DNA from: a virus
Length of the DNA stretch: 38,193 bases
Strand: one strand, 5' to 3'
Virus record (IMG/VR): IMGVR_UViG_3300047368_000007
Span: 1 to 38,193 of that record
In this document: in pieces, positions 11,699 through 18,596 of the stretch
Layout of the letters: every line of letters begins with the position of its first letter
Numbering within the stretch: the stretch's first letter is position 1
The notes under the pieces: model-generated
What the model saw: only the letters and a program-made list of their open reading frames with translations
Told to the model about the DNA's origin: nothing
Databases searched by the model: none
Program-made: the position numbers and the translations under genes

Positions 11699-11706
11699 AC
11701 AAAAGA

Positions 11707-11736
11707 AAAGCCCCTTGGATTTCTCCTTGGGGCTTT
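11707..11736. terminator. Bidirectional terminator between the convergent arms
   Basis: AAAGCCCC (11707-11714) pairs perfectly with GGGGCTTT (11729-11736); a 2x2 internal mismatch and two more GC pairs extend the stem. It lies between the stop of the last + gene (11698) and the stop of the last - gene (11740). On the minus strand it is followed by a T-rich tract (complement of 11700-11706); on the plus strand the following tract is AACTTATTTCTTCTT. It can therefore end both arms. Confidence 0.75.
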
Positions 11737-12325: not shown

Positions 12326-12775
12326 TTATTTACCTAGTGGGTTTTCATTGAGGTAATCGTAAGCTTCCCAGATGTCATCTATCTCAGTCTGTAGTGTCTT
12401 AAGTGTGTCATCTAGGTTATCAGTAACAGTAGTAGATTTGTCCACCTGACTACGTAAGTCAAGCAGAAGTTTCTGTTGCTCTAGTATCTGTTGCATGTTG
12501 GTGGACAGAGTAGCAAGCTTCTCGTTCAACCCACGTACATCATTGTCATTGATGGCTTGCTCTAGTGTCTGGACACGGGAGCCTAGTGCACCAGCCTTGG
12601 CATCAAAGGAAGCAGACTTCTCGACAACCTCTTGTATACCTGCCTCTACACCGTAGAACCTTTGCAGTGTATCGTAGGACCACCACACCCCACCTGCTAC
12701 AGAGGACAGGACAGGTAACCCTACGGCTACCATCCAGCCCTTTACGTTATACCCTGCAAACTTGAAGTCGATCAT
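12326..12775 (-). CDS. Membrane-anchored coiled-coil protein (149 aa)
   Basis: Residues about 12-33 form one hydrophobic segment (WMVAVGLPVLSSVAGGVWW). The remaining about 110 residues are a long polar helix with heptad leucines (VQTLEQAIND, LNEKLATLSTNMQQILEQ) typical of a coiled coil. This is the plan of an i-spanin-like or other envelope-anchored protein, and its late position fits a lysis or envelope role, though no family was recognised. Its ATG overlaps the stop of the upstream exported protein (ATGA). Confidence 0.65.
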   Translation of the reverse strand: MIDFKFAGYNVKGWMVAVGLPVLSSVAGGVWWSYDTLQRFYGVEAGIQEVVEKSASFDAKAGALGSRVQTLEQAINDNDVRGLNEKLATLSTNMQQILEQQKLLLDLRSQVDKSTTVTDNLDDTLKTLQTEIDDIWEAYDYLNENPLGK

Positions 12776-13650
12776 TGTGTTGGGTACCCACCGTATTCGT
12801 TGATGTACTCACCAGCACCAAAGACTTCCTCAGCATTCTTGAAGTCTGGTGTGAGGTAACCTTGGAAACCTGTGCCGAAACCTGAGTCATCCCATGCAAT
12901 GACGAACTCATCCATGGATTGTGTGTAGCTGATAGCTGTGTAGGTACCGACAAGAAAGCTACCCTGTGCAGCATAGCTGTCTACTGTAGATGTCAGGTCC
13001 TCATTGTTAGCTGCAGCCATGAAAGCACCAGCCTGTTGAGCAAACACTTCGACTGCTACTACAGCCTCGTTGTAGGTGTTGACCTCTTCGGTATCCAAGG
13101 AGAACTCATCCGTTGCCAGCATACCCTGTAGCTCTACCTGCTCAGGCTTAGTGTCGGCCTCAGCTGCAACACTAGCTACCTCTACGGCTGTCATGACTAC
13201 TGATGTAGCATCTGTAAGTGTGTCAATGGCAATCGTCAGGCTGTTCATTGCAGCTGCATGCTCTTGCATAAACATCTGTTCAGCTGTCTCAGCCACTGCA
13301 TAGTCATGGTTAAGCACTAGCTCTTTGGCATTCAGGTAGTTACCTAGTTCCTCTGAGGTGATAAGCCCCTCGTTCAAGGCGTTGTCCTCAATGACACCAC
13401 CAATAGCAGCATAGCCTACAGCACCTACAGTCATGACACCATTGGTCTGGATACGTCCCTGAATGTTGTTGATAGAGGCGATCAGCTGGTCGATCTTTTC
13501 TTGGCCAGTTAGCTCGTAGTTACTACCTGTAGTTGTGCAACCGTTGTTGTCACAGTACGTTTCTTGGTAGTAGCTATCGGCTTTTGCTACTCCTGAACTT
13601 ATCACTAATGCTGAGGCTAGGCCCAGTGTCTTTAACTTCTTGCTGATCAT
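12772..13650 (-). CDS. Exported protein with signal peptide, unknown function (292 aa)
   Basis: The N-terminus MISKKLKTLGLASALVISSG followed by VAKADS is a textbook Sec signal peptide (basic n-region, hydrophobic core, A-x-A-like cleavage near residue 25). The mature protein is acidic and Ala-rich, with a paired-Cys start (YCDNNGC) and long predicted helices; no enzyme motif is visible. It overlaps the upstream gene by 77 nt in another frame. An exported phage protein suggests a periplasmic or outer-membrane role late in infection, such as envelope disruption, exclusion, or a virion part acting in the periplasm. Confidence 0.75.
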   Translation of the reverse strand: MISKKLKTLGLASALVISSGVAKADSYYQETYCDNNGCTTTGSNYELTGQEKIDQLIASINNIQGRIQTNGVMTVGAVGYAAIGGVIEDNALNEGLITSEELGNYLNAKELVLNHDYAVAETAEQMFMQEHAAAMNSLTIAIDTLTDATSVVMTAVEVASVAAEADTKPEQVELQGMLATDEFSLDTEEVNTYNEAVVAVEVFAQQAGAFMAAANNEDLTSTVDSYAAQGSFLVGTYTAISYTQSMDEFVIAWDDSGFGTGFQGYLTPDFKNAEEVFGAGEYINEYGGYPTQ

Positions 13651-14278
13651 CTTCTATGTCCTCTCCCGTTCTAAGGATACCATCCCAGAAACCTTTGTTA
13701 TCTGTGTAGCCTACTACATAAAGATCAGGCTCTTCTCTATATTTGAGTAAGGCTTGCTTCCCCATAAGCAGCTTACCAGTTTTAATCTCATTGATGGGGC
13801 AGGGGGTATTGGCTAGGATCATAGCCTTGAATACTTGTGGGTCACCACACAACACTGATATGCCTGACACCTGTAGGCCTAGGCCACCAGCCTGATTGGG
13901 TGCACCTAGTAGCCTAGCATTCTTACGTCTGTTGCAGTTGGGGTCTTGTTGCATACCACCACCTGCTAGACCTATGTTAAGTAGGGACAGGCTCATGGAG
14001 TTAGGCATCAAGCAACTGTCATTGCCACCTGCACCCATGATAGTAGGTGCTATAGCTGACATGACTGGGGCTGCACTTGCAGCACCTGCAGCATTGTAGT
14101 TATTCGTTACGTTATCCGTATCGTTATTGCTGTCTACAGTACTGTTGCTGTTGCTGAAGTCACCAACTGTATCCTGCCCTAGTGTGACACTCACTGAGAA
14201 CATTACGAACGTCAGGGTCAACACACATAAGAGCAGTTGCTGCGTCACCATGTCCCAATTCTTTAAGGGTTCTTGCAT
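13574..14278 (-). CDS. Exported Cys-containing protein, unknown function (234 aa)
   Basis: The N-terminal part has a hydrophobic segment (QLLLCVLTLTFVMFSVSVTL) followed by GQDTVG, so a signal peptide or anchor is likely. An Asn/Asp/Ser/Thr-rich linker follows, then a Gly/Ala/Met region and a Cys-bearing C-terminal domain (SCLMPNSMSLS, QDPNCNRRKNARLL, VLCGDPQVFKAMI, TPCPINEIK, then VGYTDNKGFWD). Proteins with this DPxCNRR and TPCP pattern recur, as I recall, in marine phages without known function. The start is uncertain: I use the ATG at 14278 (AAGAGA upstream); 14251 and 14353 are alternatives. It overlaps the lipoprotein gene and the next gene out of frame. Confidence 0.7.
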   Translation of the reverse strand: MQEPLKNWDMVTQQLLLCVLTLTFVMFSVSVTLGQDTVGDFSNSNSTVDSNNDTDNVTNNYNAAGAASAAPVMSAIAPTIMGAGGNDSCLMPNSMSLSLLNIGLAGGGMQQDPNCNRRKNARLLGAPNQAGGLGLQVSGISVLCGDPQVFKAMILANTPCPINEIKTGKLLMGKQALLKYREEPDLYVVGYTDNKGFWDGILRTGEDIEDDQQEVKDTGPSLSISDKFRSSKSR

Positions 14279-14390
14279 TAAGGTTTCTCTTACAGTTCTC
14301 GTCTTGTGGTAGGCAGACGGATGGGTACTCAATTTGTGTAGTAGCACACCCACCCAACAGGAAGGCTACTGCTACAAACCTAATCAACAT
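14160..14390 (-). CDS. Small lipoprotein, candidate o-spanin (76 aa)
   Basis: The signal peptide MLIRFVAVAFLLGGC ends in a lipobox (LGGC, Cys15), so the mature protein of about 62 residues should be lipid-anchored, probably to the outer membrane. The mature part holds four more Cys (26, 33, 56, 68), which could form disulfides. It starts 11 nt inside the end of a gene for a TM/coiled-coil protein; a TM protein followed by an overlapping small lipoprotein is the usual two-component spanin layout. It is not Pro-rich like lambda Rz1, so the spanin role is an inference. Much of it overlaps the downstream exported-protein gene. Confidence 0.65.
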   Translation of the reverse strand: MLIRFVAVAFLLGGCATTQIEYPSVCLPQDENCKRNLNARTLKELGHGDAATALMCVDPDVRNVLSECHTRAGYSW

Positions 14391-14634
14391 TACGTTCTAG
14401 GTGTATACGGATGGCCTTTATGTTCTCATCCATACGGGCCAATGTGATAGCCTGTGTCTGAACTATCTTCTCTAGTCCATCCAGACGTGCCTCAGACCTT
14501 ACGATGTTACGGCTGTTAAGCTCGACTGCACTGTCAAGACTACTGACATACCACACAAGAGCTATGGTCTGACAGATGATTGCTAGTATAAAGGTCAGGG
14601 GTACTGACTTAGATAGATGCCATTGATTGTCCAT
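14380..14634 (-). CDS. Single-TM coiled-coil protein, candidate i-spanin (84 aa)
   Basis: The N-terminus MDNQWHLSKSVPL leads into one membrane span (TFILAIICQTIALVWYVSSL), then a charged helix to the end with heptad spacing (ARLDGLEKIVQTQAITLARM). This N-in, periplasmic coiled-coil plan matches i-spanins, and a lipoprotein gene overlaps its end. The ATG at 14634 shares TAATG with the upstream gene and has AAGGTG before it; a GTG 6 nt earlier is possible. No family was recognised, so the role rests on architecture and context. Confidence 0.6.
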   Translation of the reverse strand: MDNQWHLSKSVPLTFILAIICQTIALVWYVSSLDSAVELNSRNIVRSEARLDGLEKIVQTQAITLARMDENIKAIRIHLERNVD

Positions 14635-14900
14635 TACCACTTCACCTTGTTTGCCCAGTAAGCTGCACTCATCTTGCCTTTAGCAATGTTCTTAGCATGA
14701 CGAGCCTTGAAAGCTTTGTTACGTTTAGAACCATCAGGGCTACCCTTGACACCCTTCTGACCAAACCGAATGGTCTTGATCTTGTCGCCTTCCTTGGCTA
14801 CTACCACATGGGATTTTGTAGCATGACTTGGGGTAGCCTTAGGTTTGTTGAAACCTGAGACACCTGCTCGTTTTAGTCGGGGGTCTTTTTCTTTAGCCAT
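14634..14900 (-). CDS. Basic DUF6321-like phage protein (88 aa)
   Basis: A Lys/Arg-rich protein: MAKEKDPRLKRAGVSGFNKP, then KATPSHATKSHVVVAKEGDK, IRFGQKGVKGSP and FKARHAKNIAKGKMSAAYWA. The pattern of DPRLKRAGVSGFNKPKxTP followed by IRFGQxGxxG...FKARHxKNI...SAAYWANKxKW is common in marine phages and I associate it with DUF6321; its role is unknown. The true ATG is at 14900 (TAATG with the upstream gene); a longer reading from 14996 lies inside the neighbour and is rejected. Confidence 0.8.
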   Translation of the reverse strand: MAKEKDPRLKRAGVSGFNKPKATPSHATKSHVVVAKEGDKIKTIRFGQKGVKGSPDGSKRNKAFKARHAKNIAKGKMSAAYWANKVKW

Positions 14901-15346
14901 TACTTTGTGAATCCTGCTCCGAAGTATAGACCAACGATGGCCGATACGATGTGTGTGTCTAGTGGTGTGATTACGAAACCTTGGGCAGCTTGCCACTTAA
15001 CGATCTCACCACCACCACCAAATAGGTTCTTAAGGAAACCACCCTGTATCTCACTGTAGCCTACAATCACACTGACCTCAGGGTACCATACAGCTACTAC
15101 CTTAGGCAGGACGATGATAGAGAACACAGCTGATAGAGCAATTAGCCTGCGTGTCCATGCAAAGTGTTTGTCTGTCTTGCCAGCTTCCCGTGCAGTGTTG
15201 ACTTGCTCGGCATTGAAGTTAGCACGTTCCATCAGCATCTTTTGCTGGGCTTCTTTAGCCTTGATGGACTGACCCCAAACAGACATGACCCCACCAAGAA
15301 CGGTGGAGCCAAGCATTGTGATTAGTTCAAGAGGGAGACCAAACAT
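14900..15346 (-). CDS. Three-TM membrane protein, candidate holin (148 aa)
   Basis: Three hydrophobic segments are visible: near residues 7-25 (LELITMLGSTVLGGVMSVWG), 67-88 (RRLIALSAVFSIIVLPKVVAV) and 124-146 (FVITPLDTHIVSAIVGLYFG). Between the first two is a charged, probably cytoplasmic helix. The plan resembles the 3-TM holin family found in gene transfer agents and alphaproteobacterial phages (GTA holin, 3TM). Its place just after the lysozyme-like gene and before the spanin candidates supports a lysis role. The family match is from memory and architecture, so alternatives remain. Confidence 0.65.
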   Translation of the reverse strand: MFGLPLELITMLGSTVLGGVMSVWGQSIKAKEAQQKMLMERANFNAEQVNTAREAGKTDKHFAWTRRLIALSAVFSIIVLPKVVAVWYPEVSVIVGYSEIQGGFLKNLFGGGGEIVKWQAAQGFVITPLDTHIVSAIVGLYFGAGFTK

Positions 15347-16480
15347 TTACCACTCACCCTTTGCATTCTTCTCTACCGAAAGATTTGTACCATTCTCGTA
15401 GATAGAAGTGGCTCTAGTGGTCTTCTCCGTATACAGAAGTTTACCACCCTTGTCGTAGTACTCAAAGTGAGTGTTAGTTCCACTGTTGTTTGCTACAATC
15501 TTTGTAATCTCTGATCCACCTGTAGCTGAGATAGTCTCATTCCAAGCATTAGCCCTTGCTTTGGCAATACCAATACTAGCCCCACCATCTTTGACAGTAG
15601 ATCCTGCTAGTACCTTACTGTAAAGGTTTGTTGGGCTAGGGTTATCTTTAGCAAGTTCTGCATAGATTGCTTTAGCACTACTACCTGTGTACCAACCCGT
15701 CCCTTTATTCCAACCTATCTTTACAACTGCTTTTTTAGAACCGTCACTCATACTGTCCCATGAGGTTCCTGCAGCTGATTTAGCTTTATCTGTGAACTCA
15801 CCTATCACACCCTTAGCAAAGGCTTTGTCAGAGTCGTAATCAGAACGGCGTATTGTCTTATTACCTACCTTTTTATAAGCACCTGAGGTGTCCAGTTTAC
15901 TCTTGTCGAAGTTAGTGATCTCGGTCTTGTCTTGTGTATGGGCTTTCCCATCATAAACTAGACCGTCAGGTACTACACCTCCAGCTAGTGTGATATTCTT
16001 AGAATCCTGACCTACGTGTGCCTCGTCACCTTCCTGCTTTGAGTCTACGAAGTCACTGTAGATAAGGTCTGTTACGGTTGTCGTTGTAGTAGTGGTAGTT
16101 TCTTGGGTCTCTGTAGTTACCTCAGGTGCAGCTGGGGCAGTAGTCTCTTCTTCCTCAGCACCACCGAACAGGGTTGCCCGTGTCTCTTCATCAAAGATAC
16201 CAGTCTCAGGTAGACCTTTCATCTTTTGAAACTCTTGGACACCCTTCTCAGTGTTGATACCAAAGGCACCGTCCACCTTACTGATGGATGTGACACCAGC
16301 ATCGACAAGAGCCTGTTGCATTTCAGATATGTCAGTACCCTTATCCCCACGTCTGGGTGAAATATCTGTAAAAGACTGGTAGTTCTGACGGTCAGGGTCC
16401 GCAGCTACAGGAGCAGGTTGGGTACTCTCGTTAGGGTCTAAGTATAATTCACCGTATGCAGAAAAGTCTAGTAGTTCCAT
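15347..16480 (-). CDS. Peptidoglycan-binding, lysozyme-like protein (377 aa)
   Basis: Near residues 50-110 is a PG_binding_1-type domain (GDKGTDISEMQQAL, KVDGAFGINTEKGVQEFQKM, GIFDEETRATLF). An Ala/Glu/Thr-rich linker follows. The C-terminal part contains a stretch like the C-lobe of phage lysozymes (SDGSKKAVVKIGWNKGTGWY and later IAKARANAWNE). It is thus probably a cell-wall hydrolase: the endolysin, or a virion enzyme given the adjacent internal virion genes. A catalytic Glu-Asp/Thr set could not be placed with confidence. AGGAGGT lies 8 nt before the ATG at 16480, which settles the start; an upstream reading with an apparent signal peptide is spurious. Confidence 0.7.
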   Translation of the reverse strand: MELLDFSAYGELYLDPNESTQPAPVAADPDRQNYQSFTDISPRRGDKGTDISEMQQALVDAGVTSISKVDGAFGINTEKGVQEFQKMKGLPETGIFDEETRATLFGGAEEEETTAPAAPEVTTETQETTTTTTTTVTDLIYSDFVDSKQEGDEAHVGQDSKNITLAGGVVPDGLVYDGKAHTQDKTEITNFDKSKLDTSGAYKKVGNKTIRRSDYDSDKAFAKGVIGEFTDKAKSAAGTSWDSMSDGSKKAVVKIGWNKGTGWYTGSSAKAIYAELAKDNPSPTNLYSKVLAGSTVKDGGASIGIAKARANAWNETISATGGSEITKIVANNSGTNTHFEYYDKGGKLLYTEKTTRATSIYENGTNLSVEKNAKGEW

Positions 16481-16481
16481 G

Positions 16482-18596
16482 TTATCGACCTCCTTGACCT
16501 GCTTTTTTAGTGTAGACGAGGCCATCCCCGGGGTTGAGGTACAGATCACCAACAGGCACATTATCAAAAGATGTTTGATCTGTAATCCTCCAAGCAGTCT
16601 CACGGGTCTTACCATCCTGTGCTACCTCACCTGTTGTAGTTTCTGCAGGGGCAGCCTCAGGTGCAGGCTCAGGTGTTGTATCCTCAGCTGCTTTAACCTC
16701 AGCTGAAAGCTCACGGGCATCCTTAGAAGCCTTAGGTTCAATCTGTGTAGCTAGGTTGTTCAGGTAAACCGCAGAGTTACGTAAATCAAGAAGCTCCCTA
16801 TACGCATCCTCGTTAGGTAGGTACTGGTTAAAGAGAGCCTGTGCGTAAGACTGTGCTGTTTGACCAGCCCTCTTTAGAGACTCAGCCTGATACTCAGGGA
16901 AGTCAGACCAGTCAAGAGCACGGAAGTTATCATCGAAGATCTTCTCAATAGATCCACCATACTTATCATTAATGATCTGGATTACCTTGAGTTTTCGAGG
17001 GTCTGATGTGTTGGAGTTTAGGTTGTACGTACCAGTCTCTGTATTCAGGATAATATCTAAAGCTTTTTCATCTGAGGCTATACGAGTATCATACTGGAAC
17101 CGTTGTGTAACAAGAGAACGATACATCAAGGCACGGATAGCTGCACCCTTAGCAGGGTCTACAGCCTCAGCTGTCTTGATCAGGTCTGGTAGCTTGCTGC
17201 TTACTTCCGTCCGTACACCAGCAAAAGAGATAGGCTCTTCCATGATGTCAATGGTTTCAAAACTAAGTGCTAGACCTGCTACAGTGTTGTAGAAACCGTC
17301 AGTCATTTGGCCAGACAGGATAGCTTCTTTAGAGAAACCTTTAGTTGCCTGAGAGAAAGCTTTGGTAGCTGTCCAACCTTGAGCATTCGTAAGGCCTGAC
17401 CACTTAGCTTGCTCGTCAGGGTTAACCAAAGACAAAGCACCCTCACGTTGCTTAGTCTCTAGGTCCATGGCGGCACGACCACCACTGGTCTCAAACTCAA
17501 TCAGATTGTTGTAGGTCTTGATCAAGTCGTTTGTTACTACAATATCAGCTTCCTGAATCCAGTCAGGTGTTATATCAGTATCAGCACCCAACCCTGATAG
17601 ACGGGCTTGCATCAGGTCATAGTCGGCTGGCATTAGGTTGTAGTTAGGGTCCATCATCTTGAGAGATAGAGCCATATCCGCAGCATTGTCGGACTCACCA
17701 AGGACACTAAGGAATGTGGCCATCTTACCTTCTAGTGCAAGTTCACTCTGAGTACGTAATACGATCTCACCGTCTTTACGTTCCATACCCAACTGAACAA
17801 AGAAGTCGTCCATACGAGCAAGATCTTTGAGGATGTCCTCCTTCTGAGCCAAGGGTGCGTTGGCAGGAATCCTAGATTCAATCTCAGAACGTACAGTCAA
17901 GAAGTCTACATAACGACCTTGAATCATTGCAGGTGTAACAGGTATACCCTGATCACGTAAAGCAAAGTAGGCGTTCTGTGTATCTTTTTCGAACTGGTCT
18001 GTAAGGGCCTTGATTACAGGTTTGGCTTGCATCAAGGAAGCCTCACTCTCAATCTTTAGGGTAGATACAGCTGCTTTTGTTTCCTCTCGTTCTCGGAGAA
18101 TTGTAGCAATGTTATCGTTGGTGACCTCTTCACCTATGGAATTTAATTGAGCAACTGCAAAAGCAATCTCACCTTGACCTTCTGCAGTAGAATTAAACTC
18201 ATTGATAACTCTTTCGTTTTCAGTAAGGACAAGCTGGTCATCACCTAGTCCTGTAATAAGTTTACGAGCATTTGAGTAAGGAGTAGAGCCTACGTCAACA
18301 CCCATGCCGTAGTATTTGCCGTTAAGTCTATTAATGTCTGCATTGTACTTATCAGGTGCAATCTGGTCACGGGTCTGGTGAATATCGTCAAGCTCTGATG
18401 TGTAGTTCTTTAGGTTCTCAGCATCTGCTGCAGCCCTTTTATCCGCAGACGAGGGGGCACTATCTCTCTGCCCACGGGCAAAGCCGTCTAAAAGACCAGA
18501 ACCTAGTTTAGCAAAGGTCCCAAGAGTAGAAGGCTGTTCTATGGCCCTCTCGAACTGTATCTCAGTTTCTAGGGTCGGTTGGAATATACCCGCCAT
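16482..18596 (-). CDS. Internal virion protein, T7 gp15-like position (704 aa)
   Basis: A large, mostly helical protein without membrane span or enzyme motif, ending in a Pro/Ala/Glu/Thr-rich tail (PEPAPEAAPAETTTGE). By size and place between a 1437-residue protein and the lysozyme-like gene it is one of the ejected core proteins that in T7-like phages (gp14, gp15, gp16) build a conduit across the envelope. AAGGAG lies about 9 nt before the ATG. The order here (short, very long, medium) differs from T7's gp14-gp15-gp16. No direct sequence similarity to gp15 can be claimed by eye. Confidence 0.75.
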   Translation of the reverse strand: MAGIFQPTLETEIQFERAIEQPSTLGTFAKLGSGLLDGFARGQRDSAPSSADKRAAADAENLKNYTSELDDIHQTRDQIAPDKYNADINRLNGKYYGMGVDVGSTPYSNARKLITGLGDDQLVLTENERVINEFNSTAEGQGEIAFAVAQLNSIGEEVTNDNIATILREREETKAAVSTLKIESEASLMQAKPVIKALTDQFEKDTQNAYFALRDQGIPVTPAMIQGRYVDFLTVRSEIESRIPANAPLAQKEDILKDLARMDDFFVQLGMERKDGEIVLRTQSELALEGKMATFLSVLGESDNAADMALSLKMMDPNYNLMPADYDLMQARLSGLGADTDITPDWIQEADIVVTNDLIKTYNNLIEFETSGGRAAMDLETKQREGALSLVNPDEQAKWSGLTNAQGWTATKAFSQATKGFSKEAILSGQMTDGFYNTVAGLALSFETIDIMEEPISFAGVRTEVSSKLPDLIKTAEAVDPAKGAAIRALMYRSLVTQRFQYDTRIASDEKALDIILNTETGTYNLNSNTSDPRKLKVIQIINDKYGGSIEKIFDDNFRALDWSDFPEYQAESLKRAGQTAQSYAQALFNQYLPNEDAYRELLDLRNSAVYLNNLATQIEPKASKDARELSAEVKAAEDTTPEPAPEAAPAETTTGEVAQDGKTRETAWRITDQTSFDNVPVGDLYLNPGDGLVYTKKAGQGGR

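Follow-up and report, generated by a model that had tools for sequence, protein, structure and literature searches.

The locus examined here raises two questions: which genes at the distal end of a phage late operon belong together, and what would their products do in the bacterial envelope? The window, meaning the whole stretch of 38,193 nucleotides analysed (IMG/VR record IMGVR_UViG_3300047368_000007), is a phage record of 38.2 kb and has relatives among the cobaviruses (Roseobacter phages SIO1, CRP-5, and ICBM2). Its replication genes lie on the plus strand and its late operon on the minus strand. An earlier note on this DNA had grouped four consecutive minus-strand open reading frames (ORFs) at 12772-14640 as one cluster. 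In the present analysis, the conserved unit is located at 12326-14390. It consists of four minus-strand genes, called the cassette below:

14160..14390, minus strand: gene 1, 76-aa lipoprotein with lipobox LLGGC, Ala at +2, and a small four-Cys domain
13574..14278, minus strand: gene 2, exported protein of 234 aa from ATG 14278, with signal peptide, Asn/Ser/Thr-rich stretch, four-Cys domain, and conserved C-terminal tail
12772..13650, minus strand: gene 3, exported 292-aa protein with signal peptide, mostly long helices, and a small C-terminal sheet
12326..12775, minus strand: gene 4, 149-aa protein with N-terminal transmembrane (TM) segment, coiled coil, and C-terminal NPL motif

Borders of the conserved unit

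Relatives were sought by tblastn against 50,697 phage records, and loci were taken from IMG/VR and from these records. The search split the genes into two groups, an 86-aa gene at the upstream border and the next four. Relatives of genes 1-4 occur together in CRP-207 (HMO-2011 type), CRP-810, and the spring-water phage MW202675. Of 137 distinct loci, 99 had all four in this order, and contig ends cut most of the remainder. Of 87 distinct lipoprotein loci, 6 contained the 86-aa gene, and 64 had a non-membrane gene of another kind in its place. Because the four-gene synteny recurs elsewhere and the 86-aa gene is mostly apart from the lipoprotein, the unit is set at 12326-14390. The earlier note had the four ORFs, their coordinates, and their features right. 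In detail, these features are an N-terminal TM segment and coiled coil in the 86-aa protein, LLGGC in the 76-aa protein, the four-Cys exported protein, and an AKA-type signal peptide in the 292-aa protein. Three of its genes belong to the unit. The fourth, at 14380-14640, is an independent neighbour, and 12326-12775 had been left out.

The same note took its first two genes for a spanin pair. Here the product of 14380-14640 would be the inner-membrane component (i-spanin) and that of 14160-14390 the outer-membrane component (o-spanin), with the two larger proteins acting separately. In the window the two genes are adjacent, overlap by 11 nt, and have the right topology. However, the pair is not conserved across loci, as the 6 of 87 lipoprotein loci indicate, and most of the 86-aa loci examined have no lipoprotein beside them. 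Among the distinct 86-aa loci scanned, no adjacent lipobox gene was found besides a few with u-spanins and stray frames. The pairing did not hold up, and we consider this explanation very unlikely.

Properties of the four proteins

Gene 1 is the only plausible lipobox ORF in the window. A lipobox was recognised in 63 of its 87 relatives, and in those the +2 residue is never Asp. Of 172 gene 2 relatives, 171 have four cysteines in the domain, from which two disulfides would be expected in the oxidising periplasm. The lipoprotein and gene 2 have the motif D..C.R..NA..L...G...A...LC.D in common. Profile-profile comparison of the two four-Cys domains gave a probability of 95 and an E-value of 3e-8 over 39 columns, and the gene 2 profile independently detected the lipoproteins of CRP-207 and CRP-810 (E 0.002-0.003). 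The AlphaFold model of gene 2 was too poor for use (pLDDT 52).

For gene 3, AlphaFold gave a pLDDT of 75 and a pTM of 0.60, and a signal-peptide-like start was seen in 108 of 109 relatives. A Foldseek search of this model against the PDB returned no match at E ≤ 0.001, and against BFVD it returned three matches, all uncharacterised viral proteins. The window copy has two cysteines in its mature part (YCDNNGC, residues ~33-38), and 108 of the 109 relatives counted have none. Gene 4 has a weaker TM segment than the 86-aa protein, which was flagged at the hydropathy cut-off while gene 4 was not. The C-terminal NP[LM] of the gene 4 type is present in 106 of 108 roseophage and 36 of 37 SAR11-phage relatives.

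None of the four cassette proteins had a specific match in scans of Pfam, PHROG, NCBIfam, and PADLOC, and PDB sequence searches with genes 2 and 3 gave no useful match. The two larger exported proteins, which the earlier note had called proteins of no known function, matched no family or solved fold. In public records, CRP-207 gp73 (L001:3292-3873) and CRP-810 gp51 (L003:7189-7611) are named 'lysozyme', and CRP-810 gp53 (L003:5803-6558) is named 'OmpA family protein'. We rejected both identifications, lysozyme for gene 4 and OmpA protein for gene 2, since the window proteins match no such Pfam family. Judged from sequence, the two annotations of the relatives look like errors.

Nested overlaps

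The neighbouring genes overlap out of frame by 11, 119, and 77 nt, as had been counted before. The two longer overlaps are inside the cassette:

14160..14278, minus strand: gene 1/gene 2 overlap, 119 nt out of frame; an overlap is present in 80/80 related loci, median 107 nt
13574..13650, minus strand: gene 2/gene 3 overlap, 77 nt out of frame, containing the gene 3 signal peptide; present in 89/89 loci

The 119-nt length presumes the gene 2 start at ATG 14278, alternative starts being GTG 14353 or ATG 14251. The gene 2/gene 3 overlap has a median of 116 nt (range 68-176), and its length modulo 3 equals 2 in all 89 loci. These counts call for some caution, as the start codons were picked by alignment, but the gene 3 signal peptide itself lies within the overlap. 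Upstream of the gene 3 ATG of the window, within gene 2, there is a Shine-Dalgarno-like GGGAGAGG. Among 26 adjacent late-operon pairs, the 119- and 77-nt overlaps are the only confirmed ones longer than 25 nt; a third, of 134 nt, probably results from a mis-called endolysin start. Between near relatives, 46-65% of the substitutions fall at the third codon position in all four cassette families, a pattern to be expected of four frames that are all translated under selection. The nested overlaps are not due to chance.

Position beside lysis genes and proposed function

The distal end of the late operon holds, in order, an endolysin candidate, a membrane protein, a small basic protein, the 86-aa gene, and then genes 1-4. 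The genes before the cassette are as follows:

15347..16615, minus strand: endolysin candidate with the peptidoglycan-binding domain PG_binding_1 (PF01471); true start probably ATG 16480
14900..15346, minus strand: membrane protein of family phrog_38283, a holin candidate from its position
14634..14900, minus strand: small basic protein, phrog_7595
14380..14640, minus strand: 86-aa TM/coiled-coil neighbour, outside the cassette, of a widespread phage family; ATG at 14634 preceded by AAGGTG

The cassette therefore stands in the distal late operon after the endolysin and holin candidates. This late position, together with the predicted locations of the products, points to the envelope at lysis. 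The earlier description of an envelope-directed, functionally linked group adjoining lysis genes is supported. The predicted topology comprises a lipobox without Asp at +2, signal peptides, and an N-terminal TM segment with a coiled coil. We tentatively favour, at somewhat less than an even chance, the reading of the cassette as a horizontally exchanged envelope-spanning complex that acts, spanin-like, in multi-component outer-membrane disruption at lysis. In such a complex, gene 4 would be a coiled-coil rod anchored in the inner membrane, genes 2 and 3 would be Sec-exported periplasmic proteins, and gene 1 would be an outer-membrane lipoprotein sharing the four-Cys domain with gene 2. The four proteins would bind each other across the periplasm. 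They would be made late, together with holin and endolysin, and kept in step by translational coupling through the overlaps. Once the peptidoglycan is cut, they would disrupt or fuse the outer membrane, substituting for the u-spanin within this cobavirus-like branch.

The neighbourhoods of relatives are consistent with a role at lysis. A holin-like gene or a peptidoglycan hydrolase lies within 4.5 kb in 41 of 77 SAR11-phage Cys loci, whereas the same lysis-gene queries matched none of 80 phage CsgG loci (0/80). In the myovirus Mosig, a GTA_holin_3TM protein is encoded one gene upstream. In the HMO-2011-type phage CRP-13, the slot of CRP-207's cassette holds a holin-like phrog_2524 membrane protein and an M15 endolysin. 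Relatives of the window's phrog_38283 protein precede the cassette by a short distance in cobavirus-type loci, and in Votkovvirus S28C10 one lies immediately ahead of the Cys gene.

Two-component spanins such as lambda Rz/Rz1 occur in embedded, overlapped, and separated gene architectures (PMC6139136). The cassette resembles them in having an inner-membrane protein with a periplasmic coiled coil and an outer-membrane lipoprotein, in its late position near endolysin and holin candidates, and in its gene overlaps. One N-terminal TM segment followed by a largely helical periplasmic domain, as in an i-spanin, is predicted for both gene 4 and the 86-aa neighbour. Gene 1, by its LLGGC lipobox, would be an outer-membrane lipoprotein with a short periplasmic part, as is an o-spanin. 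Gene 4 and the lipoprotein are conserved together, but two genes lie between them. In contrast to the two-component systems, the cassette has four components, two of them large exported proteins that would lie in the periplasm between the membrane-bound ones. Its lipoprotein carries a four-Cys domain, its TM protein has no Cys, and there is no clear sequence match to a spanin family.

Several observations weigh against the spanin-like reading. The cassette did not match any known lysis protein in family, fold, or motif, and the matches to spanin profiles (Rz-like PHROG) were weak (E 0.02-0.07) and of the coiled-coil kind. Gene 4 lacks a periplasmic cysteine, and at ~2 kb the cassette is large for a spanin. 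In HMO-2011-type loci, none of the scored hydrolases is encoded within 4.5 kb of the cassette. No lipoprotein is evident in the SAR11-phage version, and the outer-membrane anchor is therefore not universal. Finally, ~46 other 86-aa loci have neither u-spanin nor cassette, and the mutual exclusivity described below is thus not a one-for-one replacement. The reading is tentative because the SAR11 version shows no evident lipoprotein, the scored hydrolases are not near in HMO-2011-type loci, and the substitution of the u-spanin is unproven.

A structural role was also considered, in which late accessory proteins join the particle or help its assembly or release, for example in tail or fibre maturation. 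The late-operon position near structural genes would suit it, and in CRP-810 the cassette follows shortly after a tail-fibre gene. On the other hand, Sec signal peptides and a lipobox would take the proteins out of the cytoplasm, where particles are assembled, and the cassette is not conserved with structural genes across lineages. We give this explanation little credence. For virion proteomics of these phages, the literature gave nothing usable.

The composition of the cassette matches no described system in the libraries and literature searched. With more doubt than confidence, we suggest that it represents an undescribed class of mobile trans-envelope machine. Built from a four-Cys protein and an NPL-ended rod and spread across Roseobacter and SAR11 phage families, such a machine could break the outer membrane, or perform another envelope task, in a manner unlike Rz/Rz1 or u-spanins. 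Few marine bacteria are as abundant as SAR11 and Roseobacter, and several phages of these hosts lack a recognisable spanin. Being conserved, transferable, and of suitable topology, the gene set is a concrete and clonable candidate for outer-membrane opening. The cassette also gives names and borders to genes filed as hypothetical, 'lysozyme', or 'OmpA family'.

Relation to the u-spanin of cobaviruses

The 86-aa protein has close relatives in the cobaviruses SIO1, ICBM1-3, P12053L, CRP-4, and CRP-5, and more distant ones in CRP-7 and CRP-118-like Autographiviridae. In SIO1, ICBM1, ICBM2, and P12053L, its gene adjoins a one-protein u-spanin, and cultured cobaviruses are known to carry a u-spanin here (ICBM1 gp34 and its SIO1 relative; PMC6775973). 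The cassette is thus found in the same genome region of related phages, beside the same 86-aa gene. In architecture the two differ: a u-spanin is one protein with an N-terminal lipobox and a C-terminal TM segment. No ORF of this kind was found in the window, and the search for the cobavirus u-spanin in the window and the other cassette contigs was negative. In the cobavirus-type set, nine cassette contigs including the window have no u-spanin and seven u-spanin phages have no cassette, the sets compared having themselves been picked by those genes. This supports, short of proof, the substitution of the u-spanin by the cassette in this cobavirus-like branch. A strict one-for-one replacement is weakened by the loci with neither.

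The 86-aa WHLSKSVP family is very common in marine phages, with at least 593 IMG/VR matches, often near terminase or beside an amidase. Weak matches were also seen in Wolbachia phage WO.

Comparison with phage curli

SAR11 phages carry curli or type VIII secretion genes (PMC9599517, PMC9004378). Like the cassette, phage curli form an exported multi-gene envelope module that is swapped among unrelated SAR11 phages together with TM/coiled-coil genes. The cassette could be an export or surface-fibre system, with the TM/coiled-coil and exported proteins forming a channel or fibre analogous to curli. The Asn/Ser/Thr-rich composition of the exported protein would suit a fibre, and small TM/coiled-coil genes accompany 76 of 80 CsgG loci too. 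The two systems also did not co-occur: 20 Cys-family records or contigs had no CsgG and 22 CsgG contigs had no Cys protein, a mutual absence that is weak because most contigs are fragments. In the corresponding search, CsgG (PF03783) was found in 0/20 of the Cys-family records or contigs, and the positive control HTVC008M was detected. However, the cassette has no CsgG, CsgF, or CsgA homology, and the cassette proteins of the window matched no Csg family. The genomic settings differ, and the CsgG loci gave no lysis-gene match. One genomic slot common to curli and cassette was examined and not supported. A fibre or export function is therefore quite unlikely. In those 76 of the 80 phage curli loci (L459-L538), the accompanying genes are two in number, encode ~93 aa each, and stand with csgF and csgG; they may be the 'histidine kinase' of PMC9599517.

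Distribution and transfer

In a quick tree of gene 3, with group labels taken from the gene upstream of the cassette, the window fell inside the HMO-2011-type group (34 such rows and the window, SH-aLRT 98), apart from the other cobavirus-type copies. This nesting argues for transfer between phage groups. The cassette is present in unrelated roseophages and moves horizontally, being exchanged as a block among unrelated marine phages of Roseobacter and SAR11, of which the SAR11 phages, from several families, have a diverged version. Of the HMO-2011-type loci, 33 had the cassette in the slot after the marker gene, 16 had a different TM/coiled-coil gene there, and 27 had other content; since the anchors were selected by their similarity to CRP-207, the counts do not represent population frequencies. 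A mobile and optional cassette in a variable slot is what a competition trait would look like. It could mask receptors or serve in superinfection exclusion: its lipoprotein and exported proteins would coat or alter the surface and so block adsorption or injection by other marine phages. Phage lipoproteins with an exclusion role exist, such as T5 Llp and phi80 Cor. However, the cassette adjoins lysis genes in the distal late operon and is not placed early, four proteins with an inner-membrane rod are rarely needed for exclusion, and PADLOC defence models gave no match except coiled-coil noise for gene 4. Exclusion is thus an unlikely function.

Relatives of gene 2 were found in 11 of the 50,697 phage records, which are SAR11 or Roseobacter isolates and environmental genomes. 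The gene is recognisable in HTVC033P (HMO-2011 type), HTVC023P, HTVC115P, HTVC202P, Baldr, Mosig, and the environmental Autographivirus S28C10. Where examined, the SAR11-phage version has the Cys gene, then a gene for a larger exported acidic protein, and a little further on one for a short coiled-coil protein with an N-terminal TM segment and mostly an NPL ending. The coiled-coil proteins of roseophages and SAR11 phages have low overall identity, so that common ancestry of the two kinds rests on architecture, position, and the NP[LM] ending. PHROG family phrog_20531 contains the Cys domain of the SAR11-phage relatives, but no PHROG family matches the window's own Cys protein. The genomes of 84,980 species were searched for a bacterial origin, and no clear cellular homologue was found; the 12 matches were all in metagenome-assembled genomes or bins, where they are most likely phage contigs. 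The two larger exported proteins had been called unusual for a small podovirus, which is true for the named cobaviruses, but the cassette is common in marine phages of Alphaproteobacteria.

Two spring-water phage genomes, MW202675 (L002) and MW202481, carry the cassette or its Cys protein, and the family is thus not strictly marine. In several HMO-2011-type phages (L001:3870-4226 and ~20 IMG/VR loci), the cassette is followed by a short protein that begins with an EF-hand-like stretch and contains hydrophobic segments. It is possibly a calcium-sensing, holin-like protein, the EF-hand match being below the Pfam cut-off. In the window, a GC-rich hairpin flanked on both sides by A and T runs lies at 11706-11736, between the convergent early and late genes. 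It was spotted by eye, the terminator scan having not returned 11706-11736, and it resembles the annotated bidirectional terminator of ICBM1.

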